In this document: one piece after another, positions 4,777 to 37,656 of the stretch | Numbering within the stretch: the first letter of the stretch is position 1 | Layout: every line of letters begins with the position of its first letter | Position numbers and translations under genes: made by a program | Origin: a virus | Reading direction: 5' to 3' (one strand) | IMG/VR virus record: IMGVR_UViG_3300031671_000004 | Coordinates: 1-37,656 of that record | Length of the DNA: 37,656 bases | The notes under the pieces: model-generated | Told to the model about the DNA's origin: nothing | What the model saw: the letters and a program-made list of their open reading frames with translations, nothing else | The model's database searches: none

Positions 4777-6963
4777 CTAAATACCGCTCAATTGGAACGC
4801 TAAGTTTCTATTGGCTTCGGTCATGTCTGCATTGCTGTAATTGTTGACCGTCTGGTAGATGGTAACGCCGCCACTGCTTAGACCTCCGGGGTGCATCGTG
4901 CCCATTTGGGCATTTGTTTTAATCATTGCACCCTGTGGCACATACATCGGTTCTGGGCCGTTCTCACCGACCATAGACCAGCCACCGGGGGCATAGTTGG
5001 TGCCGGTAGCGAAACCGAGTGATTTGAGACCCGCCATAACATCAGAGAATACGTTACTACTGTTATTACTTGGTACACTACCAGCTAGTGATCCGCTCGC
5101 TAACAGAGCTTTAGCACGTGCCTGCTGGGCTGGAGTACCAGTTTTCGCCAGATTACTTACTGTACTAATGGCATTGTTTATGGATGCAAAATCGGCATTT
5201 ATGCCCTGCTGCATCTGATCTATAACCTTCTTTGTCTGATTAGCACTATTCTGTATAAGTATGAACGCTGCCACTGCTGCCGCTCCGAAGACCGCCCAAC
5301 CCGCCAGTGCCGCTGGACCACCGACATAAGTAACAAGGTTTTGCACTGCCATCTTAATACCCACTCCGCCAGTCATATTAGCAATTATCTGATCGGCAGC
5401 ATTGAAGGCGGCTGTCCCCATCGCTTTCATTGCCACGCCGAATGGTCCGGTTGCAAGCTCAATAATACCGCTTATACCCTTAGCCACCCCTCCAAAGAAC
5501 ATAAGTAACGGTCCCGAGATGGCAACAATACCGAGCGCGTCAACCACAAACTGTTTTTGACCCTTGCTGAGATGGTCGAACCAATTCGTGATGTTATTTA
5601 CTGCCTTGGCTCCGTCATTCACCACATTCGTTACTTCCGGCATGATGGTTTGTCCTAATTTCGTCAGGTCAGTCATTACTTGAGCAAGCGCATGATCAAA
5701 TTGGTACTGGGCTTCGGATTGTTTGGTCTTATAATCCTGTGCGAAGTTGTTAGTACTTTGCTGAATCGATTGCAGCTTCTGTGTGAATGAGCCTGAATCG
5801 TAGCCGCCTAACAGTTGCATGATAACTGATGAAGATCGCGAGCCGCCAAATGCCTTACTGATGGTACTGGCGGCATTAGCGCTGCTATTGGCGAAAGCGT
5901 CCGCTGCTGCCGGGCCTTGCGTTTGGAGCAGATTCATGTATGTCTGTACGCTGGTCGCGGCAGTCGGGCCGAACGTATCATTTAAATGTTTGTTAACATC
6001 CCCAAGTGCTTGTTGGATACCGCCCTCCTGGAGATCGACACCTAACTGGTTCGAGCTTATACCGATACTGGCGAGTGCTTTCTGTGCAGCAGTACTTGGC
6101 GACTGCATAAGTAAGAGAGCCTGCCGTAAGTGCTGTGCCGATGTTTGGGCATTGCCAGTCATATCGGCGAGCAACGCTTCTGCCGCACCGACATCATTTA
6201 ATGTTAAGCCTGCTGCTTTCCCTGCTGCTAATAGTCCGGTTGGGCCAAGAGCAGCAACTAGATCGTTCATACGCATGTTTCCAGCACCGACGATGGCATT
6301 GAGCGATGCTGCTGCATCGCCGAAACTTTGCGCTCCCGAAATTCCCGACTTCCACGCCACGGCAACAGCATTAGTCGTATCCTCAAGGTTTGCGCCGCCA
6401 ACGGCTGCCAATTGCTGGGCGGAGTTCAATGCGTTTATTGCATCCGCGCCGCGCAGACCAACAGATGTTAGATGATATAGACCTGCCGCCAACTGATCAG
6501 GTGTCCACATTGAGTTTTGGGATAGTTGTAATACTTGGTTACTCAGCCATGAGAGGCTATCGGTTGTATCGCCTGCCTGGGTCTGTATCAGGTTCATCTG
6601 TGTCTGGAAGCTCATCGCGCTCTTGACGGCTTCATAAGCGATGCCAGCGACAGGAAGGGTCACATAGGTGGAAATTGTACGACCAACGCCTGATAAACTC
6701 TCGCCAGTGCTTTTGAGGGAAGATGCAAGACTTGTACTAGAAACAGTTGCCTTTGCAGCCATAGCTTCTGTGGCAGAGGCTTGCTCATCAGCGGCGGCGA
6801 CTCCAGCTTCGCCTTCGGCAGTTATGGCACCCTGGGTTTCCTCGGCTTGGACTTGTAAGCCAGCTAAGCTTGCCTGCGTCGCTTCAATGCCAGCAGGATC
6901 AGCAACCGTGGTGATTGTGATACCGACGTTTGAATTGCCGCTTGCGCCTGGGAGGGTTGCCAT
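4777..6963 (-). CDS. Tail tape measure protein (TP901 family)
   Basis: 728 aa. The PhageMin_Tail/TP901 core lies at roughly residues 110-330 (QTQAGDTTDSLSWLSNQVLQ, then SVGLRGADAINALN). Hydrophobic stretches at about 470-510 and 553-573 fit the membrane-interacting parts of tape measures. The C-terminal ~100 residues carry the GWSMVGENGPEPMYVPQGA motif common at tape measure ends. At about 0.15 nm per residue the tail would be near 110 nm. The gene follows the frameshifted chaperone pair, the canonical order. No good SD is seen before the ATG. Confidence 0.95.
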   Translation of the reverse strand: MATLPGASGNSNVGITITTVADPAGIEATQASLAGLQVQAEETQGAITAEGEAGVAAADEQASATEAMAAKATVSSTSLASSLKSTGESLSGVGRTISTYVTLPVAGIAYEAVKSAMSFQTQMNLIQTQAGDTTDSLSWLSNQVLQLSQNSMWTPDQLAAGLYHLTSVGLRGADAINALNSAQQLAAVGGANLEDTTNAVAVAWKSGISGAQSFGDAAASLNAIVGAGNMRMNDLVAALGPTGLLAAGKAAGLTLNDVGAAEALLADMTGNAQTSAQHLRQALLLMQSPSTAAQKALASIGISSNQLGVDLQEGGIQQALGDVNKHLNDTFGPTAATSVQTYMNLLQTQGPAAADAFANSSANAASTISKAFGGSRSSSVIMQLLGGYDSGSFTQKLQSIQQSTNNFAQDYKTKQSEAQYQFDHALAQVMTDLTKLGQTIMPEVTNVVNDGAKAVNNITNWFDHLSKGQKQFVVDALGIVAISGPLLMFFGGVAKGISGIIELATGPFGVAMKAMGTAAFNAADQIIANMTGGVGIKMAVQNLVTYVGGPAALAGWAVFGAAAVAAFILIQNSANQTKKVIDQMQQGINADFASINNAISTVSNLAKTGTPAQQARAKALLASGSLAGSVPSNNSSNVFSDVMAGLKSLGFATGTNYAPGGWSMVGENGPEPMYVPQGAMIKTNAQMGTMHPGGLSSGGVTIYQTVNNYSNADMTEANRNLAFQLSGI

Positions 6964-10711: not shown

Positions 10712-11713
10712 TCAGTATTCCTTGTTTATCCAGAACTGAAAACCATGGTCTTGGCCGGTTGACCCTAGTTCTCTATTAGATAGTGTGCCAGAGGTATCCT
10801 GAGTTGTCTCATCCGGCCAGCCGCCAAAGCCGTGGGCTTCGTCAATCGTCTCTTCATTGTAATTGGCGTCCATCAGTATTACTTCGCGGTCTACCAGCTC
10901 AGCTAAACTGGTATGCGAACCGCCGCCGTTACGGGCCGTGCTGGCTTTGGCTTCACCTTCAGCCGCCATGCTGGGGCTGACTTCAAGATATTCCTCGTGC
11001 ATCAGCTCACCAGCGGCGATATTCTTGACGATCTCCACGACAATCGGGTTTGTCGGCTGTGGCAACGGCAACGTATAGACGGCTGCCAGAGAGCCTAGCA
11101 CTTCTTTTTCAGCCGCGTCCCTAAACTCGTTGATAATATCATCGGTGACTTTTGCGTTAGTCCGAAACCCGGCGGCATTGCGCACCTGATCGGTCGAAGC
11201 AATGTGGACAACTCCAGTTTGCGCGGCATTACTGGAGGACAGATCCGTTTCGCTCGTAGTCGTCGAGTTGTAGTAGGTAAACTTGTACCACTGTCCGGCT
11301 ACCCCCGTAGCATCGGTATATTGGGTCGAGGCACTATTGGGCGTGATGTTGATCGTAGTGATCAGCGAGAAATCAGCATCAGGTGGCTGCGTACCATTGC
11401 CGGAGACGTCGTTAGCCCGATATACCCGTATCTGGTTACCGAATAACAGTGTCACAAGATCGTTGAAATTGTGAGGCAGGCTGGTCGTAGCAGATAAGGG
11501 GATAGCCGTACTACTAACTGGGCTGGTAGCCGTTTGCATTTCGGACACGCTGCTGCCGAGAGAACCGATAATAACGTAGCCGCCACCGCTGAATGATGCG
11601 CTGTTACCGACAGGAAGCGAGTTGACCCCAGCTGCCAGGTCTTGCGTTAAAGCCGTCGGCTGCCCTACGAGGTTGGGGCGGTTATAATTGGTCAGTGAAA
11701 TCGAGTTCGCCAT
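10712..11713 (-). CDS. Head-tail connector with N-terminal extension
   Basis: 333 aa. The C-terminal half (about residues 175-260: VRNAAGFRTNAKVTDDIINE through IVKNIAAGELMHEEY) resembles the helical head-tail adaptor (gp15/gp6-like) that caps the portal. The N-terminal ~170 residues are beta-rich, with Ig-like or domain-swap-like character, probably displayed at the neck. AAGGGAAA precedes the ATG. The gene closes the head module; the HNH gene is inserted just after it. Confidence 0.7.
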   Translation of the reverse strand: MANSISLTNYNRPNLVGQPTALTQDLAAGVNSLPVGNSASFSGGGYVIIGSLGSSVSEMQTATSPVSSTAIPLSATTSLPHNFNDLVTLLFGNQIRVYRANDVSGNGTQPPDADFSLITTINITPNSASTQYTDATGVAGQWYKFTYYNSTTTSETDLSSSNAAQTGVVHIASTDQVRNAAGFRTNAKVTDDIINEFRDAAEKEVLGSLAAVYTLPLPQPTNPIVVEIVKNIAAGELMHEEYLEVSPSMAAEGEAKASTARNGGGSHTSLAELVDREVILMDANYNEETIDEAHGFGGWPDETTQDTSGTLSNRELGSTGQDHGFQFWINKEY

Positions 11714-11730: not shown

Positions 11731-13179
11731 TTACAGGTATATGTGGTCATTGTCATCATTACTGAGCATCGTAGTGCTGTCGTTCTGGGATAGAGAGTTG
11801 TGAATATCATTCTGGGCGATCTGCGTCACGTCGTCATTGTTGGTAGTGAGAGTAACCGTAGCATCGTTCTGGCTGAGATTCGTTGCAATAGGTTTTGGCG
11901 CAGTGTTAGTGACGATATGGGCTGTCGCGGTCTGGGTCTTCATTGCTGAGAACGAAATGCGAGCGGTAGCAGGCTGGGTCTTGGTAAGAATTGCGGCTAA
12001 TCGTGCTGTCGCGGTTTGGACAGATGATAGGCTCTTGGCAATTCGAGCAGTAGCCGATTGGGTCTTGGTAAGTGACTTCGCTATACGGGCCAGAGCGTTC
12101 TGGGGCGCTGCGAACGTCTTGGCGATCCGGGCTAAGGCACTTTGGATATTCGCGGAGGTAACGCTTATCCGTGCCACGCTCGACTGGGTATTGGTCTTGA
12201 GGACTTGGATGCGGGCAGTTGCTGGCTGGGCATTCGTGACCGTTCGTATAATGCGCGCGATTGCAGACTGGGTTTTAGTGACAGTACTATTCTGTATGAT
12301 ATGCGCCGTAGCTGGCTGTGTCAGGAACAGATTCTTTTGTATCCTGGCATTTGCAGGCTGTGTTTTGGCAGCGATTATCTGAATGCGGCCGATAGCACTC
12401 TGCGTTTTTGTCAAGTTATTAGCGATACGTGAAACTGCGGTCTGGATTCTCGTGAGATTAGTGGCGACCCGAGCAATAGCACTCTGGGGAATCGTCTTGT
12501 TGGCTGCTATGCGAGCCGTCGAGTTCTGAGTTTTGACAAGGTTAGTGGCAACTCTCGCTATGGCTGGCTGCGTCTTTGTCAGGCCATTGGCTATGCGCGA
12601 GATTGCACCCTGGATATTCGTAGAGATAACACTTATACGGCCTATCGCAGTTTGGGTCTTAGTATAATTCTGAGCAACCCGGCTTATAGCTGTCTGTGTC
12701 TTAGCTATAGGCTGGACGATTCGCGCTAGGGCAGCTTGGGTTTTGGTTACGGTTTTTTGTATACGAGCAATAGCACCTTGGGTTTTGGTGAGGTTGTTGG
12801 CTATACGGGATATGCCGCTCTGCGTCTTCGTATAATTTTGGGCTATGCGGGCCGTAGATGTCTGAGTCTTCGTGAGGTCAAAAGCGATACGGGATATAGC
12901 AGGTTGGGTTTTGGCGACGATTGCTGTGATGTGAGCGGTGGCACTTTGCGTTTTGGTTAGATTGTTAGCCACCCTCGCTATAGCTGATTGAGTAGTTGTC
13001 CGATTGTTAGCTATGCGCGAGATAACCCCTTGCGTTTTCGTAAGGTTATTTGCGATCCTGGCTTTTGCCGCTTGGGTAAGTGTCTTATTAACCGCTATGC
13101 GTGCGATAGCGGTTTGCGTCTTAGTAAGGTTACTCCCCCCGCTAGGGAGAATAATTAGGAGATAGTTTTCTCCGAACAC
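11731..13179 (-). CDS. 14-residue tandem repeat protein, putative neck or head fibre
   Basis: 482 aa from a GTG start. After 17 residues comes a run of 29 copies of a 14-residue unit, consensus LTKTQxAxARIANN, broken once by a two-residue ST insertion after copy 20. The Gln at unit position 5 is invariant, position 10 is Arg in 26 copies and His in three, and position 11 is always I, V or L. The last 57 residues are Asn/Asp/Ser-rich with a smaller SQNDxT-type repeat. An ATG two bases upstream forms TAATG with the preceding stop but leads to a stop after eight codons, so GTG is chosen. A regular strand-turn repeat fits a fibrous stalk such as a beta-solenoid or triple beta-spiral, but no family is recognised. 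Confidence 0.8.
   Translation of the reverse strand: MFGENYLLIILPSGGSNLTKTQTAIARIAVNKTLTQAAKARIANNLTKTQGVISRIANNRTTTQSAIARVANNLTKTQSATAHITAIVAKTQPAISRIAFDLTKTQTSTARIAQNYTKTQSGISRIANNLTKTQGAIARIQKTVTKTQAALARIVQPIAKTQTAISRVAQNYTKTQTAIGRISVISTNIQGAISRIANGLTKTQPAIARVATNLVKTQNSTARIAANKTIPQSAIARVATNLTRIQTAVSRIANNLTKTQSAIGRIQIIAAKTQPANARIQKNLFLTQPATAHIIQNSTVTKTQSAIARIIRTVTNAQPATARIQVLKTNTQSSVARISVTSANIQSALARIAKTFAAPQNALARIAKSLTKTQSATARIAKSLSSVQTATARLAAILTKTQPATARISFSAMKTQTATAHIVTNTAPKPIATNLSQNDATVTLTTNNDDVTQIAQNDIHNSLSQNDSTTMLSNDDNDHIYL
11905..13128 (-). repeat. 29 x 42-bp degenerate coding repeat array
   Basis: 1,224 bp encoding 29 units of 14 residues plus one two-residue insertion. Units share TKTQ and AR-I codons but differ in synonymous positions, so the array is old enough to have diverged or is held by protein selection. 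Confidence 0.85.
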
Positions 13180-13180
13180 A

Positions 13181-13522
13181 TTAGTACTTCAACACTTTCC
13201 ATGGATATGCCCTCGCCGTCCCAAATGTCTGTTTGAGGCTGAACCGTAAGGCTGTAGAGTCCGTTAAGTCGTTTCCGATCGGCAAACTTATTTTAATAAG
13301 ATCATCGGCTAGCTGTACGCCGTAGAATGTCTGTTCGAATACGACACGGCTTGTCCCTGCTGTCAGTACCATCTGGTAGACCCGTAATTCGGTTATGTCT
13401 CCAGTAGCCATATTGACAGTATCGACATGGAATGAAAATACTCCCGCGACATTGGTATCGGCTAGTTGTGCTTCGGTACCAACCGTTGGCGTTTCAGTAC
13501 CTGATGCTTGTAATGATGGCAT
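13181..13522 (-). CDS. Small virion-cassette protein
   Basis: 113 aa, starting MPSLQASGTE. An open frame extends upstream to 13699, but the ATG at 13522 has AAGGAG ten bases upstream and forms TAATG with the preceding stop, so the shorter form is preferred. The sequence is beta-rich with no cysteine. Its place among surface-type genes between capsid and connector suggests a decoration or fibre-base protein. No family recognised. Confidence 0.7.
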   Translation of the reverse strand: MPSLQASGTETPTVGTEAQLADTNVAGVFSFHVDTVNMATGDITELRVYQMVLTAGTSRVVFEQTFYGVQLADDLIKISLPIGNDLTDSTALRFSLKQTFGTARAYPWKVLKY

Positions 13523-14070
13523 TAGATTGTACTCCTTGTACTTAAACCGAATAACGGTATCTGGTCTTGCCCGAGCGTCGCAAACGTCGCAGAAGCTGGC
13601 AGGGGAAACGCAGAGTCCATCTGAGCCAACCCCGTATAGGGAGTCTTCAGCGACTGGCCGATCTGCTGGATGGCAAAATTGGCCGTAGTATTGTCGCAAG
13701 ACATCGCCATATAATACAGCCCTGGCCCGAGGGTGGTGGTGGTCAGCGTGAGTAGCTGGATATTGTACGTTCCAGACATAGCAGTCGAGCCCTTCGAAAC
13801 GATCTTCGTTCCGTCCGACGAGTAGATACCGACGTCAAGATTCCCGCTGACGCTGTTCCAATTAGAGGTGAACATCGTGGAGAAGCTTATTTTCTGGCTG
13901 AGCATGAATGGTACGAAGATTGCTCGGTTAGAGTTTGGCCAGTTTCCAGCCGCATGGCTGTTTAGCCCCTGGTTCGCCCCGTTGTATACCGCAGAGCCGC
14001 CAGCCCCAGCCTCCATAGAGAGTGGGATTATCGTCACCAACGGCTTAACCACTGGAGCAGGCCAAATCAT
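13522..14070 (-). CDS. Virion-surface protein, intact copy of a duplicated pair
   Basis: 182 aa, beta-rich. Shared with the upstream locus 14067-14604 are SGNLDxGxYSxDGTKI, the T-TTLGPGL-Y segment, PLPASATFA, and a GxxxRSxx end. The start overlaps the neighbour's stop as ATGA, so the two are translationally coupled. Such jelly-roll-like proteins occur in head fibres or decorations. Function is inference. Confidence 0.7.
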   Translation of the reverse strand: MIWPAPVVKPLVTIIPLSMEAGAGGSAVYNGANQGLNSHAAGNWPNSNRAIFVPFMLSQKISFSTMFTSNWNSVSGNLDVGIYSSDGTKIVSKGSTAMSGTYNIQLLTLTTTTLGPGLYYMAMSCDNTTANFAIQQIGQSLKTPYTGLAQMDSAFPLPASATFATLGQDQIPLFGLSTRSTI

Positions 14071-14604
14071 AGCACGCTCCTTCCGGTTATACCCATAATC
14101 GGAACCATAGACCCAGTATTCGCAGCGAACGTAGCGGATGCTGGCAGCGGCAGGGCAGACGCCTGCTGCGACACGCCCAGCATCCTTAGCAGGCCAGCCT
14201 TATCGGTATTGGACATCGAGTACGCCATCCTGACATGCCGTAGTGCTACACACCAAGGCAAGATAAAACAGTCCTGGCCCGAGGGTGGTGCTTGTCACGG
14301 TAATGACATTGTTGTTCGCCCCCACAGAAGTCGAGCCTGTCGAGATTATTTTCGTACCATCTTCTGAGTAGACACCAGCGTCAAGGTTGCCCGATGCCGA
14401 CCCGATGCAAACTGCGATACTGCTAAACTGGAACGGCGAAGCTATCCGAAAAGGGATGTAGAGCGCCAGATTATTGGCAGGCCATGCCGTACCAGCGTTT
14501 ATAACTCCGCCGCCCATAGGAATCGAACCAATACTCATTGGCCCGAGCGTAGAGATGGTAATTAACCCATCAGGCATAAAGCGAGGACGCAGGAAGTTAG
14601 TCAT
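14067..14604 (-). pseudogene. Frame-shifted paralogue of the 13522-14070 gene
   Basis: The frame 14200-14604 (134 aa) aligns with the first ~125 residues of the intact paralogue up to TTLGPGLFYLALVCSTTA, then runs into unrelated residues and stops. The missing C-terminus (RMAYSMSNTDKAGLL through PLPASATFA to TGRSVL) is present at 14067-~14230 in the frame one base further on. A +1 shift near 14230-14245 restores a full-length homologue. Either a one-base indel inactivated or split this copy, a sequencing error is present, or the ribosome shifts. The C-terminal part has an in-frame ATG in AGGATGGCG. The start overlaps the upstream gene as ATGA. Confidence 0.75.
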
Positions 14605-14978
14605 AGTGTCTGTACTTCCTGGATATTCTCGCCGTTATCGTTAGTATATTGATACCCGAAGTCGACCTCTGAATAACCCATTTCTTCAGTGCCATCAGGA
14701 AAAAAGTGATGGTAGCCATGGCGGAAGCGAATCGGACGAGCATTTTCTGGCAAATTCCGCCAATTGACATCGTACCGGCGATTCTTCCAGAACACCGTGA
14801 ACTTGACCATCTTGCCGTGTTCGGCTTCTGGCAATCGGTTTAGGATGTCATAAAAAATATTGTGTTTGACTTCACTCTTATCAAACTGAGCAACATCTTT
14901 GTGCTCAGTCTCATCGAGCATAAAACCGTCTTGATATTCAGCGCGAACGGACGAGTCGATTGGTTGCGGTAATGACAT
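14601..14978 (-). CDS. Hypothetical virion-cassette protein
   Basis: 125 aa, acidic N-terminal third, then an alpha-beta region rich in aromatic residues (RFRHGYHHFFPDGTEEMGYS). No family recognised. It is coupled by ATGA to the frame-shifted duplicate downstream. It is less low-complexity than its neighbours and could be an adaptor rather than a decoration. Confidence 0.65.
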   Translation of the reverse strand: MSLPQPIDSSVRAEYQDGFMLDETEHKDVAQFDKSEVKHNIFYDILNRLPEAEHGKMVKFTVFWKNRRYDVNWRNLPENARPIRFRHGYHHFFPDGTEEMGYSEVDFGYQYTNDNGENIQEVQTL

Positions 14979-14995: not shown

Positions 14996-15505
14996 TTAGC
15001 TTTCAGTCCACGAAGCAGTGATTGTTCTGCTGGCAATGTCGCCAGGCCCACCAGCGTAGCTAGAAGTCGTCTGTAGTTGCGTTCTGAGCGCGTTCGCATA
15101 CATCGTACCGGAAGCCGTCGAAGAACTTGTGCCCGTACCGTAAGGTGAGCTAGAGGTATTGAAGTTAGCAGACAAACCACTTGTACTCATTGCTGAGTCG
15201 CCACTGGCAGTCGTGCTAGGCGTCGTACCAGAAGTTACTACTGAGCCCACGATTGATAACCCTGTGGCGGGAGCGTTATTGTCGATCTTGTATGTCAATG
15301 CACTCAAGCTATTCCAAGTACCAGCAAATACGATTGCCTGATATTTGGTCATTGAGTTCTGATTACTAGTAGAGTTTATAGGGTTGGAACTGTAGTCAGA
15401 TTGCGTAGCGCTATCATTACGTTTCCAGTTACAAGCCGTGACACTGGTTGTTTCAGTGGCAGCGTTCGTACCGTTGAATTCAGACCATGTTTGAGTAGAT
15501 GCCAT
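14996..15505 (-). CDS. Ser/Thr-rich virion protein
   Basis: 169 aa, very rich in Ser, Thr, Asn and Gly, with N-terminal TWSEFNGTNAATETTSVTAC and C-terminal ITASWTES. This composition fits a beta-sandwich surface protein. The start forms TAATG with the upstream stop. No named family. Confidence 0.65.
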   Translation of the reverse strand: MASTQTWSEFNGTNAATETTSVTACNWKRNDSATQSDYSSNPINSTSNQNSMTKYQAIVFAGTWNSLSALTYKIDNNAPATGLSIVGSVVTSGTTPSTTASGDSAMSTSGLSANFNTSSSPYGTGTSSSTASGTMYANALRTQLQTTSSYAGGPGDIASRTITASWTES

Positions 15506-15701: not shown

Positions 15702-16763
15702 TTATACGGTTATATTATTAGCATTGACCGTACTCGTTCCACTGTCTGTAATAGCGGTCGTAAAGCCGGAGATATTATTACTGGTAAGGATAGTCTTTGT
15801 AGCACCCGAGATAACGTCTATCCCCGTAGCAATGTTGGCTATCGAGTTTCCGTTAATAATCGCATTATTTCCACTATTGACGTAAATACCGACTGAGCTA
15901 GAGAGAGGTGTACCGTTACCTATGACTGAGTTTCCAACAACCGTTGCACCATATCCAGTGCTACTATCATTGATAAATATCCCATTTCCGGCGTAATCTA
16001 GCCATATAGCATTACCAGAGACAGTACATCCATCTACCACTTGTACAGCGTCACCACCAACCTGATACACAGAATTTCCAGTAAATGTACAACGAAAGTC
16101 TGAGGTTAGTGCCGCTCCATTACCACAGAAGAATGAATTACCTGTTATGCTACACCATTCACCACCTGTATAAAGTATTGGACCACCACCAGCGCTTATG
16201 GCCTGATAATAGAGGAAGTTAGCCGAAAAGGTTGTGTTAGCATCAAGCCATACACCACCATTTGTATTATGTGGTGCTATGAAGTGGTTTCCTACAATAC
16301 GGTTTCTAGGTCCAAATAAACAACGCGCAGAACTCCCTGTAGCTTCAAATTTGTTATGAAAGTAGCTATTGTAGTAATAATCCGATAGAAAGTACATTGC
16401 AGCAGAACCTTTAAGATGGTTGAGCGTTAGTGTAGAGTATTGTCCTGTTATTTCTATCTGGTAGCTTGCGCCAGCGTCTATCGTACAACCGGATAGCTTC
16501 AAGTAATTACCTGAAAGGATGAGGTTAGCCCCAAGGGTCATCGTAACAGCTTCCGTACCAGCTCCTACGATTGTCAGATTCGTTTGAGAAAATGTACCAC
16601 CTGCTTCTGAGTATGAACCAGGTTTAACATAAATCGTATTACCGCTTACAGCCGTACCGAGAGCAGCAGATAGTGTCGTAAAATCTCCACCAGTAGGAGC
16701 TACGATATATGTGTAGTACATTTTCTGGGCTGGTGCTGGCGGTGACCCGAAAGGCAATAGCAT
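15702..16763 (-). CDS. Right-handed beta-helix (pectin-lyase-fold) virion protein
   Basis: 353 aa. After a short lead, GGDFTTLSAALGTAVSGNTI and YVKPGSYSE mark the classic start of a parallel beta-helix. At least ten N-x-I/V-x-GN-type rungs follow (IVGNHFI, ITGNSFF, FTGNSVY, VSGNAIW, VVGNSVI, INGNSI, LTSNNI). The fold is used by tailspike depolymerases and head fibres. No clear catalytic carboxylate pair can be assigned, so enzyme activity is uncertain. Its position near the capsid genes, far from the tail-tip fibre, suggests a head or neck appendage. Confidence 0.8.
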   Translation of the reverse strand: MLLPFGSPPAPAQKMYYTYIVAPTGGDFTTLSAALGTAVSGNTIYVKPGSYSEAGGTFSQTNLTIVGAGTEAVTMTLGANLILSGNYLKLSGCTIDAGASYQIEITGQYSTLTLNHLKGSAAMYFLSDYYYNSYFHNKFEATGSSARCLFGPRNRIVGNHFIAPHNTNGGVWLDANTTFSANFLYYQAISAGGGPILYTGGEWCSITGNSFFCGNGAALTSDFRCTFTGNSVYQVGGDAVQVVDGCTVSGNAIWLDYAGNGIFINDSSTGYGATVVGNSVIGNGTPLSSSVGIYVNSGNNAIINGNSIANIATGIDVISGATKTILTSNNISGFTTAITDSGTSTVNANNITV

Positions 16764-18043: not shown

Positions 18044-18997
18044 TCAAGCGACCGCGCCCTGAATCATATAGAACGCTTCCGGTCCGACCATGAACTGGCT
18101 GTAATAGTCGTTCACGCGAACCCAGGTCGTCTTACGATCCCTTGAAGGCCAACCGTCAACATAGCGGCCGTTTTTCAGTACTAAGGTGTACATACCGTTC
18201 ACTTGGCGCAGGCCAGGTGTCGGCGTACAGTAGGCCAACCACAGGTTCTTACCCCAAACATACGTGTTGCTGGTTGTTCCTGGAGGCGGTGCCTGTTCTG
18301 TTGACGAGTCGTAGACTACTTTACCTATGACTACGCGGGTAATCATCGTGCCGGAAGTCTTGCTGATAAGTTCAGCGAAGAGCTGCTCCGTCATAACACC
18401 TAATTGCGAGTATTTCACGCGGTCGATTAGGTCAGGATGGTTCATAAGTTGCGCCCATACCTGCCAACCCATAAAGATGGTGTTCGGAGCCTTTAGACCG
18501 TTCAATAGCATCGTGCTGACGCCAGTGACGATGTCCATAAATGGCGAACCTGCACCGGTGCTAGCGTTCCATTGCACGCCTGGGGCGGCATATTGGGTAA
18601 CAGTAGCAGTGCTGCTCAGCGTAGTCGCTAAGTTGATTTCCCGATCGCGCTTCATGGCGTCCATAAGTTCACGGGTCGCATCGAACATCGGGTCAAGCGG
18701 GTTCAAATATTGTTCAAGCACATCTTTTTCAAGACCAGTCTTGAGGGCACGTTCCTGAAGAGTAGTGTAGTTCTTCCATTCGACGTTGGTGTCCATCTCA
18801 GCTGTCTTTTGCTTGCCGGTTCGCAGGATGTTCGTCGGCTTGCGTAGATTAGACCTGGTGTAGTAGGCATATTTGCCTGTTTTTCGTTCGACGGTGAGCA
18901 CAGGAGCGATCACATCTTGCAGGTAGTCCGCGTCGTCGTTGCGGTACAGCTGGCTCATGTTGGTCAGCGCCTGTGGTATATAAATTTGGCCGTTCAT
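18044..18997 (-). CDS. Major capsid protein (HK97-fold)
   Basis: 317 aa, the expected size. Features match tailed-phage capsid proteins: an N-arm (PQALTNMSQLYRNDDADYLQ), a Lys/Arg-rich E-loop-like segment (RKTGKYAYYTRSNLRKP), a spine helix (DPMFDATRELMDAMKRDREI), and an A-domain with LNGLKAPNTIFMGWQVWAQL and YVWGKNLWLAY. The order protease/scaffold, decoration, capsid is canonical. The only SD-like AAGGA is about 15 bases before the ATG, weak for a highly expressed gene. Confidence 0.85.
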   Translation of the reverse strand: MNGQIYIPQALTNMSQLYRNDDADYLQDVIAPVLTVERKTGKYAYYTRSNLRKPTNILRTGKQKTAEMDTNVEWKNYTTLQERALKTGLEKDVLEQYLNPLDPMFDATRELMDAMKRDREINLATTLSSTATVTQYAAPGVQWNASTGAGSPFMDIVTGVSTMLLNGLKAPNTIFMGWQVWAQLMNHPDLIDRVKYSQLGVMTEQLFAELISKTSGTMITRVVIGKVVYDSSTEQAPPPGTTSNTYVWGKNLWLAYCTPTPGLRQVNGMYTLVLKNGRYVDGWPSRDRKTTWVRVNDYYSQFMVGPEAFYMIQGAVA

Positions 18998-23870: not shown

Positions 23871-26546
23871 TTAGTAATCACCCCAACTGCCATTAACACC
23901 ACCTGCGTACTCATTCTCAGCGCTGCCGGGTGTGGGCTCGTAGTCAGCGTCGTCTTCGTCTTCGGAAGCCGGTTCATCCTTTGTTTGCCAATCGACAATT
24001 CCTTGACGGATTAGGGTCATCATAACACTGTCCGCCCGGTCAGGTGACTTGCCGTGTAGACGCTTCTTCATTTCCTTTTTTTCTTCAATGAATATCTTGT
24101 TGCCCCTAAAGAAATACTGGATACAACTTAATTCATCCATCAGTTCTTCTGGCAGCTTGCCATCTTCGTCTGGCATCAGATAAACATCGTCAGACTCAAA
24201 CATCTCCATAAGCTTCCAATACAGCTCAGCACGCTTGTTCGCAAATACCATTTGTGGCATACCCTCTGGCTTGTCGGTAGGTGACGTGTTCACGTCTACG
24301 CCGATGATCTGCGCCCATTGGTTATTACCGAGGGCCTCTTGTTCCTCTTGGAGCTGGAGCAGTTGGTCTAACACTCCACCGCCGACACCGATAACATCAA
24401 TGCAGGTAATGTCAGTCGGTAAGTTCTGTATCATAGGCCAAACCCGACCGGCAGTCTCGGTAGTTTTCTGCTTATGAAATGCTTGGCCGAAACCGATAAC
24501 TTTTCCCCAACGGCGAGTGACGACGCTAGAGTCGCTTCCTTCACGGGCAACATCAACACCGCGTATAGTGTTTTGGCTAGCGATGTAATCAGCTAACGCT
24601 TGCTTTCGCATCTCATCGTTTTTTGCCTCGAGCACTTGTGCCTCGGCCTCACTAATCTTCGGCGTGGGATCAGGCAAGTTAAGCCCAAGCACTTTCTCCA
24701 GCCGTTCGTTGCTGCAGGCTTTCTCGATCCAGTTCAGCGGGATAAGGTTGTTTTCGCCGACTTCTGGGAACTTGGCGCGGATACGCGACTGATAGAGCGG
24801 ACTACCGACACCCCACTTTTTCAGACGCTCATAGGCCCATACAGGTGAGATGAGCGAGTGGTATGGCTGTAAGAGTTCCTGCTTCGACTCGATTGCTTTG
24901 ACCAATTGCTCTTCGTTACGAATATTATTCGCTATAAAGTTTGGCGTATCGAAAGCGTCTATGCGGATGCGATGCGCTAACGAGCCAGGCTTGTGACTAT
25001 CACGAAAGGTACCGGTTTGGCTCGTCGGGTTGCCGAGCATCAGGAAGCGGGCATCGGCGCTCGTTAAGATGGCGTAAATACCCTCGAAGATTAATTCATC
25101 AATAGCAGCTGCTTCATCGGCGATAACGAGGATATGACCGCTATCTGCATGATAACCCTGGATACGGTTCGGGTCCTTGCTTGAAACGCCGACAGCGAAC
25201 CAGTTGCTGCTTATCTGCCAGCCGGTTACGTTCGGGTGATCACCACCAAGGGGGATTTTAGCTTTGTCGTAGCGGGTATTGATTTCGCGCCACAACAGGT
25301 CTTTTACCTGACGGAATGTATTACCGGACCAACAATACTTTCCATTACGCCGCACAAGTACGATTCCACTTGGTACCTTCACGCAATAGACGACTCCCTT
25401 ATAGTTTTGCTTGTACCAGTCCGTTCCCTTGACAGTTGGGTATGCGCCACGATTCCATATCCTCACACAATACGCCGTGTACTCTACAGGAAGGTTTGAA
25501 AAATAAGATTTTGTTCTCGACTCACACGATATGTTAGTAATCATGCCTGCTTTTATACATAACTCTTGTAGGTCATCAGCCAATATGCGCGATGAGGTAC
25601 ATAGCTTGCGTGAACCATTTACGTCCACAGAACCATCGCCCATCGCGTAACCATCGAGAAATGCTTTGATACAGGCTTGGTTAGCCTCCTTAACATAGGC
25701 GGGCACGTGTTTTGTTCTTGCTTTGCCGTACTGTACTAGTTCTTCGGCGAGCGCCTTTGCGTGAATGGTAATGTCAACGCATGCAGGATCGCTTTGTTTA
25801 GGATAAACTTTTGCTCTTTCAAGCCAACCAATATGCTCAACTAATCCTAGCGCATATGCGATATGCTTCTTTTGCGTTAGTGTCACCCGGTATTTACGTT
25901 TAGGTGGGTTGAACTCTGCCCACCCTTCGGCAAACCAAAAACCTAAGAATTCAAACCAATCGGGATCTTCCTGCTTTCCAACCCAGGTTGCCGTCTTTCG
26001 GAAGCGCTCCCATTTCCCATAAATTTCTTCGGCTGTATTAATACGAAACCCTTTTGATTTTTCTGGTCGATGCCACATACGGTGGTTTGGTGTTACAAGA
26101 AGGTCGACGAGGCCGTTCTTAGCACCTATCATTTCGCCTTTATATGGAAAAGTTATGATATCTGAAGGCTTCACGAATTCGAGCTTTGTGCCGTCGACTA
26201 ACTGCGCAACTTCGTCTGTATCGTTGAGGTCACGGAATAGCACCCAACCACGTTGACGAGTCAAGATTTCTGTCTGGTCATCATAACAAGGTGCAGTCGT
26301 AACGACGATAGATTCTTCATAGGAGGATAAGTACCACGGTACCAGACAGCCAGAAGTGCCCGTCTTGCCAGCGGAGTTACAGCTGGAAACCGTCGTGGTG
26401 CGGTTATGTACTACACTCTGGGCAATTTCTATTTGTTGACGATACGGTGTAAAACCGAGGATATGCTCAAAAAACCACTCGGGGTGCTGGCGGTAGTACG
26501 CTTGGAGCTTCTTGGCCTGATCAGGAGTCAGGCTCTGTTGGCTCAA
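23871..26546 (-). CDS. terL: Terminase large subunit, intein-containing
   Basis: 891 aa as translated, 568 aa after removal of a 323-residue intein. ATPase part: Walker A-like SSCNSAGKT at 54-62, then the ESIVVTTAP segment interrupted by the intein, TFRQVKDLLWREI resuming the extein, and Walker B HILVIADEAAA. Nuclease part: RGVDVAREGSDSS with the first metal-binding Asp, CIDVIGVGGG, and SPDRADSVMM near the end. All catalytic elements seem present. Protein splicing is needed for activity because the intein splits the ATPase domain 25 residues after Walker A. The start overlaps the small terminase by 26 bases. Confidence 0.93.
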   Translation of the reverse strand: MSQQSLTPDQAKKLQAYYRQHPEWFFEHILGFTPYRQQIEIAQSVVHNRTTTVSSCNSAGKTGTSGCLVPWYLSSYEESIVVTTAPCYDDQTEILTRQRGWVLFRDLNDTDEVAQLVDGTKLEFVKPSDIITFPYKGEMIGAKNGLVDLLVTPNHRMWHRPEKSKGFRINTAEEIYGKWERFRKTATWVGKQEDPDWFEFLGFWFAEGWAEFNPPKRKYRVTLTQKKHIAYALGLVEHIGWLERAKVYPKQSDPACVDITIHAKALAEELVQYGKARTKHVPAYVKEANQACIKAFLDGYAMGDGSVDVNGSRKLCTSSRILADDLQELCIKAGMITNISCESRTKSYFSNLPVEYTAYCVRIWNRGAYPTVKGTDWYKQNYKGVVYCVKVPSGIVLVRRNGKYCWSGNTFRQVKDLLWREINTRYDKAKIPLGGDHPNVTGWQISSNWFAVGVSSKDPNRIQGYHADSGHILVIADEAAAIDELIFEGIYAILTSADARFLMLGNPTSQTGTFRDSHKPGSLAHRIRIDAFDTPNFIANNIRNEEQLVKAIESKQELLQPYHSLISPVWAYERLKKWGVGSPLYQSRIRAKFPEVGENNLIPLNWIEKACSNERLEKVLGLNLPDPTPKISEAEAQVLEAKNDEMRKQALADYIASQNTIRGVDVAREGSDSSVVTRRWGKVIGFGQAFHKQKTTETAGRVWPMIQNLPTDITCIDVIGVGGGVLDQLLQLQEEQEALGNNQWAQIIGVDVNTSPTDKPEGMPQMVFANKRAELYWKLMEMFESDDVYLMPDEDGKLPEELMDELSCIQYFFRGNKIFIEEKKEMKKRLHGKSPDRADSVMMTLIRQGIVDWQTKDEPASEDEDDADYEPTPGSAENEYAGGVNGSWGDY
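25320..26288 (-). mobile_element. Intein with LAGLIDADG-type endonuclease in terL
   Basis: Residues 87-409 of the terL product. It starts with Cys87 (CYDDQTEIL, block A), has a block B-like LVTPNHRMWH, two dodecapeptide motifs LGFWFAEGW at ~201 and FLDGYAMGDGS at ~296 of the homing endonuclease, then VVYCVKVPSGIVLVRRNGK (block F) and ends SGN before extein Thr410. The penultimate residue is Gly rather than the canonical His; such ends occur in phage inteins, but splicing may depend on another His. Both acidic residues of the endonuclease motifs are kept, so homing may still work. The insertion site TTAP/T is in the most conserved part of the ATPase. Confidence 0.93.
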
Positions 26547-36470: not shown

Positions 36471-37656
36471 TCAAGCGGCTAACTCGACCTCCTCATATTC
36501 TGGAACGACAGGAACGACGCTCTTAATCTTGCTATTTTTAGCAGCATGGTGTGCATTGGCAAAGACCGACAAGTAGACGCTCATAAGACTTGGTGCGACG
36601 ATCAGCAAGGTAGGCAATGGGCTTTTGTCGAGTACCAGCGATATACCTGACAACACAACCGCAAACATGATCTCACCTTTGTTGGCCCGCAGCGCTTCCC
36701 ACCATGATACATGACTGTGGCTTTTCGGCGTTACTAGAAAAACCGATCCGCCGAATAACGACTTGACCGAGGATGTCAGACTGATGAACAGCATGGAACC
36801 GTAGAGCAGAAATGTATGTAAGAGGTACCATGCCATATGCAATAGCGGGATTTTCCGCCAGTAGAAGATCACGTCGTTCATCATCGGCGCGAACAGGAAT
36901 AGGATAGTCGGCACCAGCAGCCAGGCCGGATAGCCGACGTGGTAGCGCAGCAGCGGCAGCAGCACGACGTTGATGACCACGTAGAAGGCAAAGAAGGCAG
37001 TCAACGGCAGGTTGTATGTAAACAGCACAATGTCCAGCTTCTCGAACCATGTCATGTCTGCCCGCAGTATACGCAGAGTGTAGCGTTTAATGAACTCCAT
37101 ATTGCCCTGTGTCCACTTGGAGTGCCGTTTCTTGAATGCCAGGTAGCTGATCGGGTATTCCTCCTCGCAGACAATATCCGCGGCGAAGGCCACGAAATAG
37201 CCCTTCCGCCGGGCCTCAATACTGAAACATAAGTCCTCAGCTACCATATGTGGGAACCCGTTGGCAGCTTGATAGCATGACCGGCTGACCATAGCACCAT
37301 GCCCAAGGAGCGACAGGAAGCCGCCATGTTGTTTCACCGCCTGGTATGTCGGCCAATGCGAATCTACGCCTATAGAGAACAGTTTCATAAACCGGTTGCG
37401 GTTCCGGGTCGCAATGTGGTTGGCCTGGACTATTCCTACGCTGTCGTCTTCGGCAAAGTAATCAAGCGCTCTGGTGACAAAGTTCGGCGGTATGATCTCG
37501 TCGCTGTCTAAAATGACAAAATATTCATAATCGGCAGTTCGTAAGTAGTTATTGAGGTTCCCGGCTTTGAAGCCGATATGGTCTTTCCGTCTGATAACTT
37601 CCAACTTATGGCGCAAGGCGAATGCATCAACCTCTGCCTTGTACTCCGACTTAGTT
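36471..37656 (-). CDS. Family 2 glycosyltransferase, cellulose-synthase-like (5' end outside window)
   Basis: At least 394 aa; the frame is open to the right edge, so the true start is missing. GT-A motifs: GFKAGNLNNYL, DSDE with the metal-binding Asp, GHGAMVSR, AEDLCFSIEARRKGY with the catalytic Asp, and KRHSKWTQGN, the Q/RxxRW-like acceptor motif. C-terminal half holds about five to six membrane helices. Such enzymes make polysaccharide at the membrane. In phages they can modify the host surface, but this may equally be a bacterial gene next to a prophage. Confidence 0.88.
   Translation of the reverse strand, partial: TKSEYKAEVDAFALRHKLEVIRRKDHIGFKAGNLNNYLRTADYEYFVILDSDEIIPPNFVTRALDYFAEDDSVGIVQANHIATRNRNRFMKLFSIGVDSHWPTYQAVKQHGGFLSLLGHGAMVSRSCYQAANGFPHMVAEDLCFSIEARRKGYFVAFAADIVCEEEYPISYLAFKKRHSKWTQGNMEFIKRYTLRILRADMTWFEKLDIVLFTYNLPLTAFFAFYVVINVVLLPLLRYHVGYPAWLLVPTILFLFAPMMNDVIFYWRKIPLLHMAWYLLHTFLLYGSMLFISLTSSVKSLFGGSVFLVTPKSHSHVSWWEALRANKGEIMFAVVLSGISLVLDKSPLPTLLIVAPSLMSVYLSVFANAHHAAKNSKIKSVVPVVPEYEEVELAA

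Follow-up and report, generated by a model that had tools for sequence, protein, structure and literature searches.

A 14-residue tandem-repeat protein encoded between the head and connector genes of an uncultured phage is a candidate virion fiber shaft

Organization of the locus

The window, by which we mean the whole stretch of DNA analyzed, is a 37,656-base IMG/VR record. Gene C codes for a repeat protein of 482 residues and occupies the interval given in the original prediction, but its strand had to be corrected; stops interrupt the plus strand of 11731 to 13179, and the C open reading frame is on the minus strand. The gene lies between head and connector genes, as had been proposed, with the major head protein encoded upstream and the head-tail adaptor downstream. 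The relevant features are as follows.

18044 to 18997, minus strand: major head protein, upstream of C (phrog_1005, E 8e-46)
14996 to 15505, minus strand: A, conserved partner of 169 residues, with an all-beta model (pLDDT 89)
14601 to 14978, minus strand: B, conserved partner of 125 residues
14067 to 14604, minus strand: domain gene broken by a frameshift; 14200-14604 resumes in another frame at 14067-14261
13522 to 14070, minus strand: domain gene of 182 residues, similar to the preceding split one
13181 to 13699, minus strand: small protein, true start probably at an inner ATG (MPSLQASG...), with a homologue at the same place in the related contig L034
11731 to 13179, minus strand: C, repeat protein of 482 residues (GTG start at 13179, stop at 11731-11733)
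13129 to 13179, minus strand: C leader, 17 residues, VFGENYLLIILPSGGSN, upstream of the array
11905 to 13128, minus strand: C array, 29 units of 14 residues, consensus LTKTQSAIARIANN (residues 18-425, 408 residues)
12283 to 12330, minus strand: sole 16-residue spacing of the array, LFLTQPATAHIIQNST (residues 284-299), with Arg10 replaced by His
11734 to 11904, minus strand: C tail, 57 residues, Asn/Asp-rich and acidic, ending in SNDDNDHIYL
10712 to 11713, minus strand: head-tail connector (adaptor), directly downstream of C (phrog_195, E 2e-4)
4777 to 6963, minus strand: tape measure protein, separate from C (PF10145)
46 to 1218: LamG-bearing fiber gene, away from C

C has no globular end domain. 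Its leader resembles MYGETLTILIPETQNN and MYGETLTIVIPGIHNV, the leaders of two syntenic L034 proteins (compared by eye), and because both of these have the same short leader type we rejected the idea that C derives by truncation from a larger protein bearing an N-terminal domain. A role as tape measure protein was likewise rejected, as C matches no tape measure family and a separate tape measure gene is present. The split gene, which precedes a second, similar beta-domain gene, has an intact homologue in L034; sequencing error and decay are indistinguishable as sources of the frameshift. Among the head genes, 15702-16763 (minus strand) codes for a right-handed beta-helix protein, and the related contig L020 has a beta-helix-like protein of 651 residues that is similarly placed.

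An old array under purifying selection

The 29 units over 408 residues that had been predicted are present at residues 18 to 425, with an identity at lag 14 of 0.417, compared with a best value of 0.162 at any lag from 5 to 40 in 1,000 shuffles. The periodicity, claimed to be exact, is so for 27 spacings of 14 residues and is broken by the one of 16, where Arg10 is changed to His, as is usual when units of the wider family are spaced by 16 residues. Gln5 is invariant, as had been noted (29/29 units), position 11 is Ile, Val, or Leu in all 29, and position 10 is Arg in 26 and His in 3. The unit was first described as TKTQxAxARIANN, and LTKTQ(S/T)A(I/T)ARIANN is the more accurate form. The array is Thr/Ser-rich and almost without aromatics, with 56 Lys and Arg and a single acidic residue in its 408 positions, a net charge of about +1.9 per unit.

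Tandem Repeats Finder detected no DNA-level tandem repeat at the array, and pairs of units share 52% of their nucleotides and 48% of their residues. Identity between units at codon positions 1, 2, and 3 is 0.62, 0.65, and 0.30, respectively; third positions are thus saturated, and the units are old duplicates held together by selection on the protein pattern and not the product of recent DNA duplication. The related contigs L004 and L011 both keep 22 units, and their arrays have a dN of 0.027 and a dS of 0.28 (dN/dS of about 0.1). The units are under purifying selection, which is position specific.

A family of 14-residue units with a probable Gly/Pro turn

Using a two-unit DNA pattern together with a looser pattern, we recovered the unit from dozens of contigs in IMG/VR, and refined parsing yielded 1,256 units from 50 open reading frames on about 47 contigs, nearly all of them viral; two Saccharibacteria prophages also carry it. 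Setting aside short fragments at contig ends, the arrays contain about 10 to 118 units each. The unit occurs in an Ala7 form, as in C, and a Gly7 form (TQTGKARI). Glycine and proline are concentrated at adjacent positions, with 687 of the 959 glycines in the family at position 7 (Gly7 in 55% of units) and 141 of the 251 prolines (56%) at position 6 (Pro6 in 11%), a clustering that points to a turn in each unit. Gly7 is present in 100% of the L008 units and 95% of those of L048, in which 76% also have Pro6, and the turn signal in the C array itself, with six Pro6 and one Gly7 in 29 units, is weaker than it is family-wide. Beta-branched Thr, Val, and Ile predominate in the family.

Inserts between units are mostly of two residues. 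Arg10 is lost before 31 of the 39 16-residue spacings versus 153 of the 1,077 14-residue spacings (p of about 1e-18, with units not independent), and this tie suggests that Arg10 probably contacts the next unit. Some family proteins have N-terminal regions that look lectin-, Ig-, fibronectin-, or propeller-like by sequence (Pfam supports only a few), and their C-terminal domains are varied.

The original prediction of an undescribed fibrous module is borne out in part. C has no above-threshold match in Pfam, and its PHROG profile matches are to families of unknown function, phrog_5553 (E 5e-8) and phrog_25538 (E 2e-4), the latter also matching the members L044 (E 4e-12) and L012 (E 1e-11). Several members match these two PHROGs, over the repeat region only, and neither PHROG has an assigned function. 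The unit is also not alone in its genomic slot, where several unrelated repeat families are found, as described below. Searches of cultured phages by tblastn with the C and L044 proteins gave no match, the low-complexity filter probably masking the repeats, and a literature search for the unit or for any 14-residue phage repeat found nothing. The exact two-unit pattern is absent from 85,000 genomes, in which the looser pattern finds one certain Saccharibacteria prophage and three weak or chance-like matches.

Copy number changes by whole units

Copy number was predicted to be variable, and it differs among relatives. The near-identical contigs L022 and L092 differ in C by whole units only; their DNA is 99% identical over the 120 codons that start the aligned region and 93% identical in two further blocks, and between these blocks L092 has extra segments of 88, 14, 28, and later 16 residues, each a whole unit or a sum of units (88 being four of 14 plus two of 16). 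A repeat protein of 2,468 residues (L083:5419-12825) contains 4.7 copies, matching at 95%, of a 336-bp block that spans eight units, which is a recent tandem expansion. In the slot that C occupies, unit counts in relatives are about 1 in L030, 12 in L034, 21 in L084 and L089, and more than 30 in L092 (L030 and L092 counted by eye). Unit number may set fiber length, in keeping with the hypothesis that it acts as a second ruler besides the tape measure, and the L022/L092 pair opens this relation to direct testing.

The slot preceding the connector gene

Relatives gathered through the connector gene (n = 18, including this phage) show that the gene just before the connector codes for a significant tandem-repeat protein in 14 of 18, compared with 2 of 74 control open reading frames of the same loci (Fisher p of about 3e-11). 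The repeats themselves are swapped, with unrelated units of 14, 18, 22, 24, and 39 residues, the 18-mers including SGTLNLAGSLSRQIQRTL and SDTGSGVDALSLLAQIAV. Charge differs too; three slot proteins are strongly acidic, at -1.7 (L099), -1.8 (L101), and -1.4 (L094) per 14 residues, in contrast to the basic C array. The slot conserves tandem-repeat character and not charge.

The 18-, 22-, and 39-residue repeat families of the slot are found in L086, L091, L096, L099, L101, L103, and L100. A similar short motif closes several slot proteins whose repeats differ (for example, LDQDDNEIHLK, SNDDNDHIYL, LADDNEITII, and LDENDGLLYLR, compared by eye); its carriers are C, at 11734-11760, and the slot proteins of L034, L086, L091, and L092, and a common C-terminal anchor is possible. 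A D/N-rich C-terminal tail common to all slot proteins was considered and rejected, as only some have one.

A three-gene cassette shared with Saccharibacteria prophages

Protein A, used as a query, finds 14 related loci, most with the repeat gene, and profiles of the three proteins show that the genes share a strand and have the invariant order A-B-C. Of 48 contigs bearing C (near-duplicates included), 40 have A upstream of it on that strand; seven of the other eight end less than 2.5 kb from C, and the sole real exception, L050, is a weak member. A and B are present without the repeat in L020. Profile searches of the PDB and of PHROGs gave nothing usable for either A or B.

The cassette is found in siphovirus-like contigs, in the L083 contig, and in two Saccharibacteria genomes. 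The L083 gene for the 2,468-residue protein is separated from a head-tail adaptor gene by a single small open reading frame. In the Saccharibacteria genome G001 (contig 23; L075/L076), A-B-C is flanked on one side by an integrase gene and on the other by smpB and tRNA-Asn, so that the element looks like a prophage, and its A is 67% identical to that encoded at 14996-15505; the second such genome is G526. Among the genomes sampled, 1 of 287 from the phylum and 2 of 393 from the order carry C. Since the cassette occurs in these genomes, a Saccharibacterium is plausibly the host of this phage. The succession of A, B, and a tandem-repeat gene before the connector provides a signature with which head and neck fibers could be sought in uncultured phages, Saccharibacteria prophages included.

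What the array may form

Several structures could underlie such a repeat. A flexible cationic spacer or surface brush without ordered structure would suit the Thr/Ser-rich, basic, aromatic-poor composition (56 K+R versus 1 D+E in 408 residues) and the AlphaFold2 model of the C monomer, predicted with 16 family members, which has a pLDDT of 31 throughout and no secondary structure. We nonetheless regard it as unlikely; the exact 14-residue register and the fixed hydrophobic Ile11 argue against it, and the strict link between Arg10 and spacing is accounted for by ordered packing and not by disorder. The monomer model is neither for nor against an intertwined oligomer. An alpha-helical trimeric coiled coil, with 14 residues as two heptads and a core at positions 1, 4, 8, and 11, draws on the hydrophobic periodicity; units of the Gly7 form show a beta-like pattern and those of the Ala7 form a mixed one, and in the variant present in C the heptad component is at least as large as beta alternation, and the 102.9-degree component is the largest (0.33). 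C also has weak, sub-threshold matches to Pfam coiled-coil families such as CLZ and to trimeric coiled coils of the PDB, namely a trimeric autotransporter fragment (2wpr, E 0.006) and coronavirus HR1 chimeras, and the stem of the phi29 gp8.5 head fiber is a helical supercoil (PMC6542822). However, Gly7 and Pro6 would interrupt a helix once per 14-residue unit, and they recur in homologous register, such that the uninterrupted Gly/Pro-free heptads of trimeric coiled coils are absent. Beta-branched residues dominate, and the PDB matches are composition-like; we dismissed the sub-threshold Pfam coiled-coil and spike HR1 matches as composition driven and consider a coiled coil quite unlikely.

We find it very unlikely that the array serves to bind a polyanion, either packaged DNA in the head or phosphate-rich polymers of the host surface. 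Its charge per unit and the position of its gene among head genes would fit, but the slot proteins of relatives are strongly acidic (L099, L101, and L094), and many members have lectin- or Ig-like domains that are expected outside the particle. Donor-strand assembly, in which each C unit would fill the groove of one A subunit with a pilin-like, incomplete Ig fold and C would be a string counting A beads, is suggested by the A-B-C gene order, by the strand-like alternation of the units, and by the model of A, whose best neighbors among solved folds are nearly all chaperone-usher pilin subunits (best Z 7.2, to FimG, with an rmsd of 3.2 A over 115 residues; Z below 8 may reflect a common arrangement only). 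Foldseek gives A a best E of 0.011 against solved structures, with TM-scores below 0.45, and no match at E below 0.001 among viral predicted structures. A is present, however, in L030, where C has a single unit, and in L020, where it has none; we judge this arrangement extremely unlikely. There is similarly little probability in a composite scheme, in which A-B-C would be a widespread cassette with an exchangeable shaft slot, a ruler given by unit number, and perhaps donor-strand pairing between C units and A, a way of assembly that to our knowledge is not known in phages.

A head or neck fiber shaft as the favored reading

Electron micrographs show long thin fibers on phage heads and necks. 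We favor, at somewhat better than even confidence, the reading that C is the interchangeable shaft of such a fiber, probably a beta-structured oligomer attached to the head or neck, with a reach set by the number of units. Each unit would most likely be one beta-fiber repeat, with strand segments flanking a turn at positions 5 to 8 (Gln5-[Ser/Thr/Pro]6-[Ala/Gly]7-x8) and units stacked in register, the small residues at positions 7 and 9 being packed inside along with Ile11. The chain is probably oligomeric, and by analogy with other viral shafts may be a trimer. Because the gene adjoins head genes and directly precedes the connector gene, attachment to the head or neck, aided by A and B, is probable. 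A location at the tail tip is less likely, since the tape measure, the distal tail genes, and the LamG-bearing fiber gene (46-1218) are elsewhere, and the tail-tip adhesin would be encoded there and not by C. In many relatives the same shaft would carry globular lectin-like or Ig-like domains, held off the particle to touch cells or matrix, and its reach would change through recombination in whole units. Several points weigh against a shaft. In the variant present in C the heptad component of hydrophobicity is no weaker than the beta alternation, the monomer model gives no fold, and A and B also occur in L020, which lacks the repeat. L030 has about one unit in the same slot, which indicates that a long shaft is not essential there, and the end of C itself has no globular domain.

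Triple beta-spiral shafts of the adenovirus type have short repeats, a Gly/Pro-rich turn, strand-like alternation, and a length given by repeat number, and low sequence similarity between them is usual. They are the nearest working analogy for C, as yet unproven. A conserved Gly/Pro turn in a short tandem repeat is present in the family, and repeat length and strand-like alternation are similar, but C has no sequence match to these shafts, the hydrophobic positions of the consensus differ, and no solved fiber shaft is among its PDB profile matches at E up to 1.

Among phage proteins, phi29 gp8.5 has a beta-barrel base of 110 residues and a helical supercoiled stem and forms a head appendage (PMC6542822). 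Read as a fiber, C would resemble it in being made with the capsid and in placing an elongated part beyond a base, as an appendage of the virion head. C shares the gene position of this type, between the major head protein and the head-tail adaptor, but only the 17-residue leader precedes its 14-residue repeat, compared with an N-terminal base of about 110 residues, and we rejected C as a head fiber of the gp8.5 type. Phage 7-7-1 has long flexible head fibers for which the authors postulate a trimer with a repeat-sequence shaft resting on Ig-type proteins, the structure of the capsid fiber being unsolved (PMC12796354); the likeness to C, compared by description, is that of a postulated repeat-built shaft extending from the head. 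The BACON tandem repeats of crAss-like phages evolve by duplication and are associated with host binding (PMC6949934). These too are tandem-repeat structural proteins of phages, but the repeats are whole domains and tail associated, in contrast to the 14-residue unit of C and its gene among head and connector genes.

Other genes in the window

The large terminase (23871-26546, minus strand; 891 residues) has an apparent intein of about 330 residues at TTAP/TFRQVKD, whereas that of L020 is uninterrupted at 561 residues. The intein stretch matches LAGLIDADG_3, as well as thymidylate synthase and RNR PHROGs, presumably through intein-bearing members. At 36471-37616 (minus strand) there is a family 2 glycosyltransferase with membrane-like segments, an unusual phage gene.
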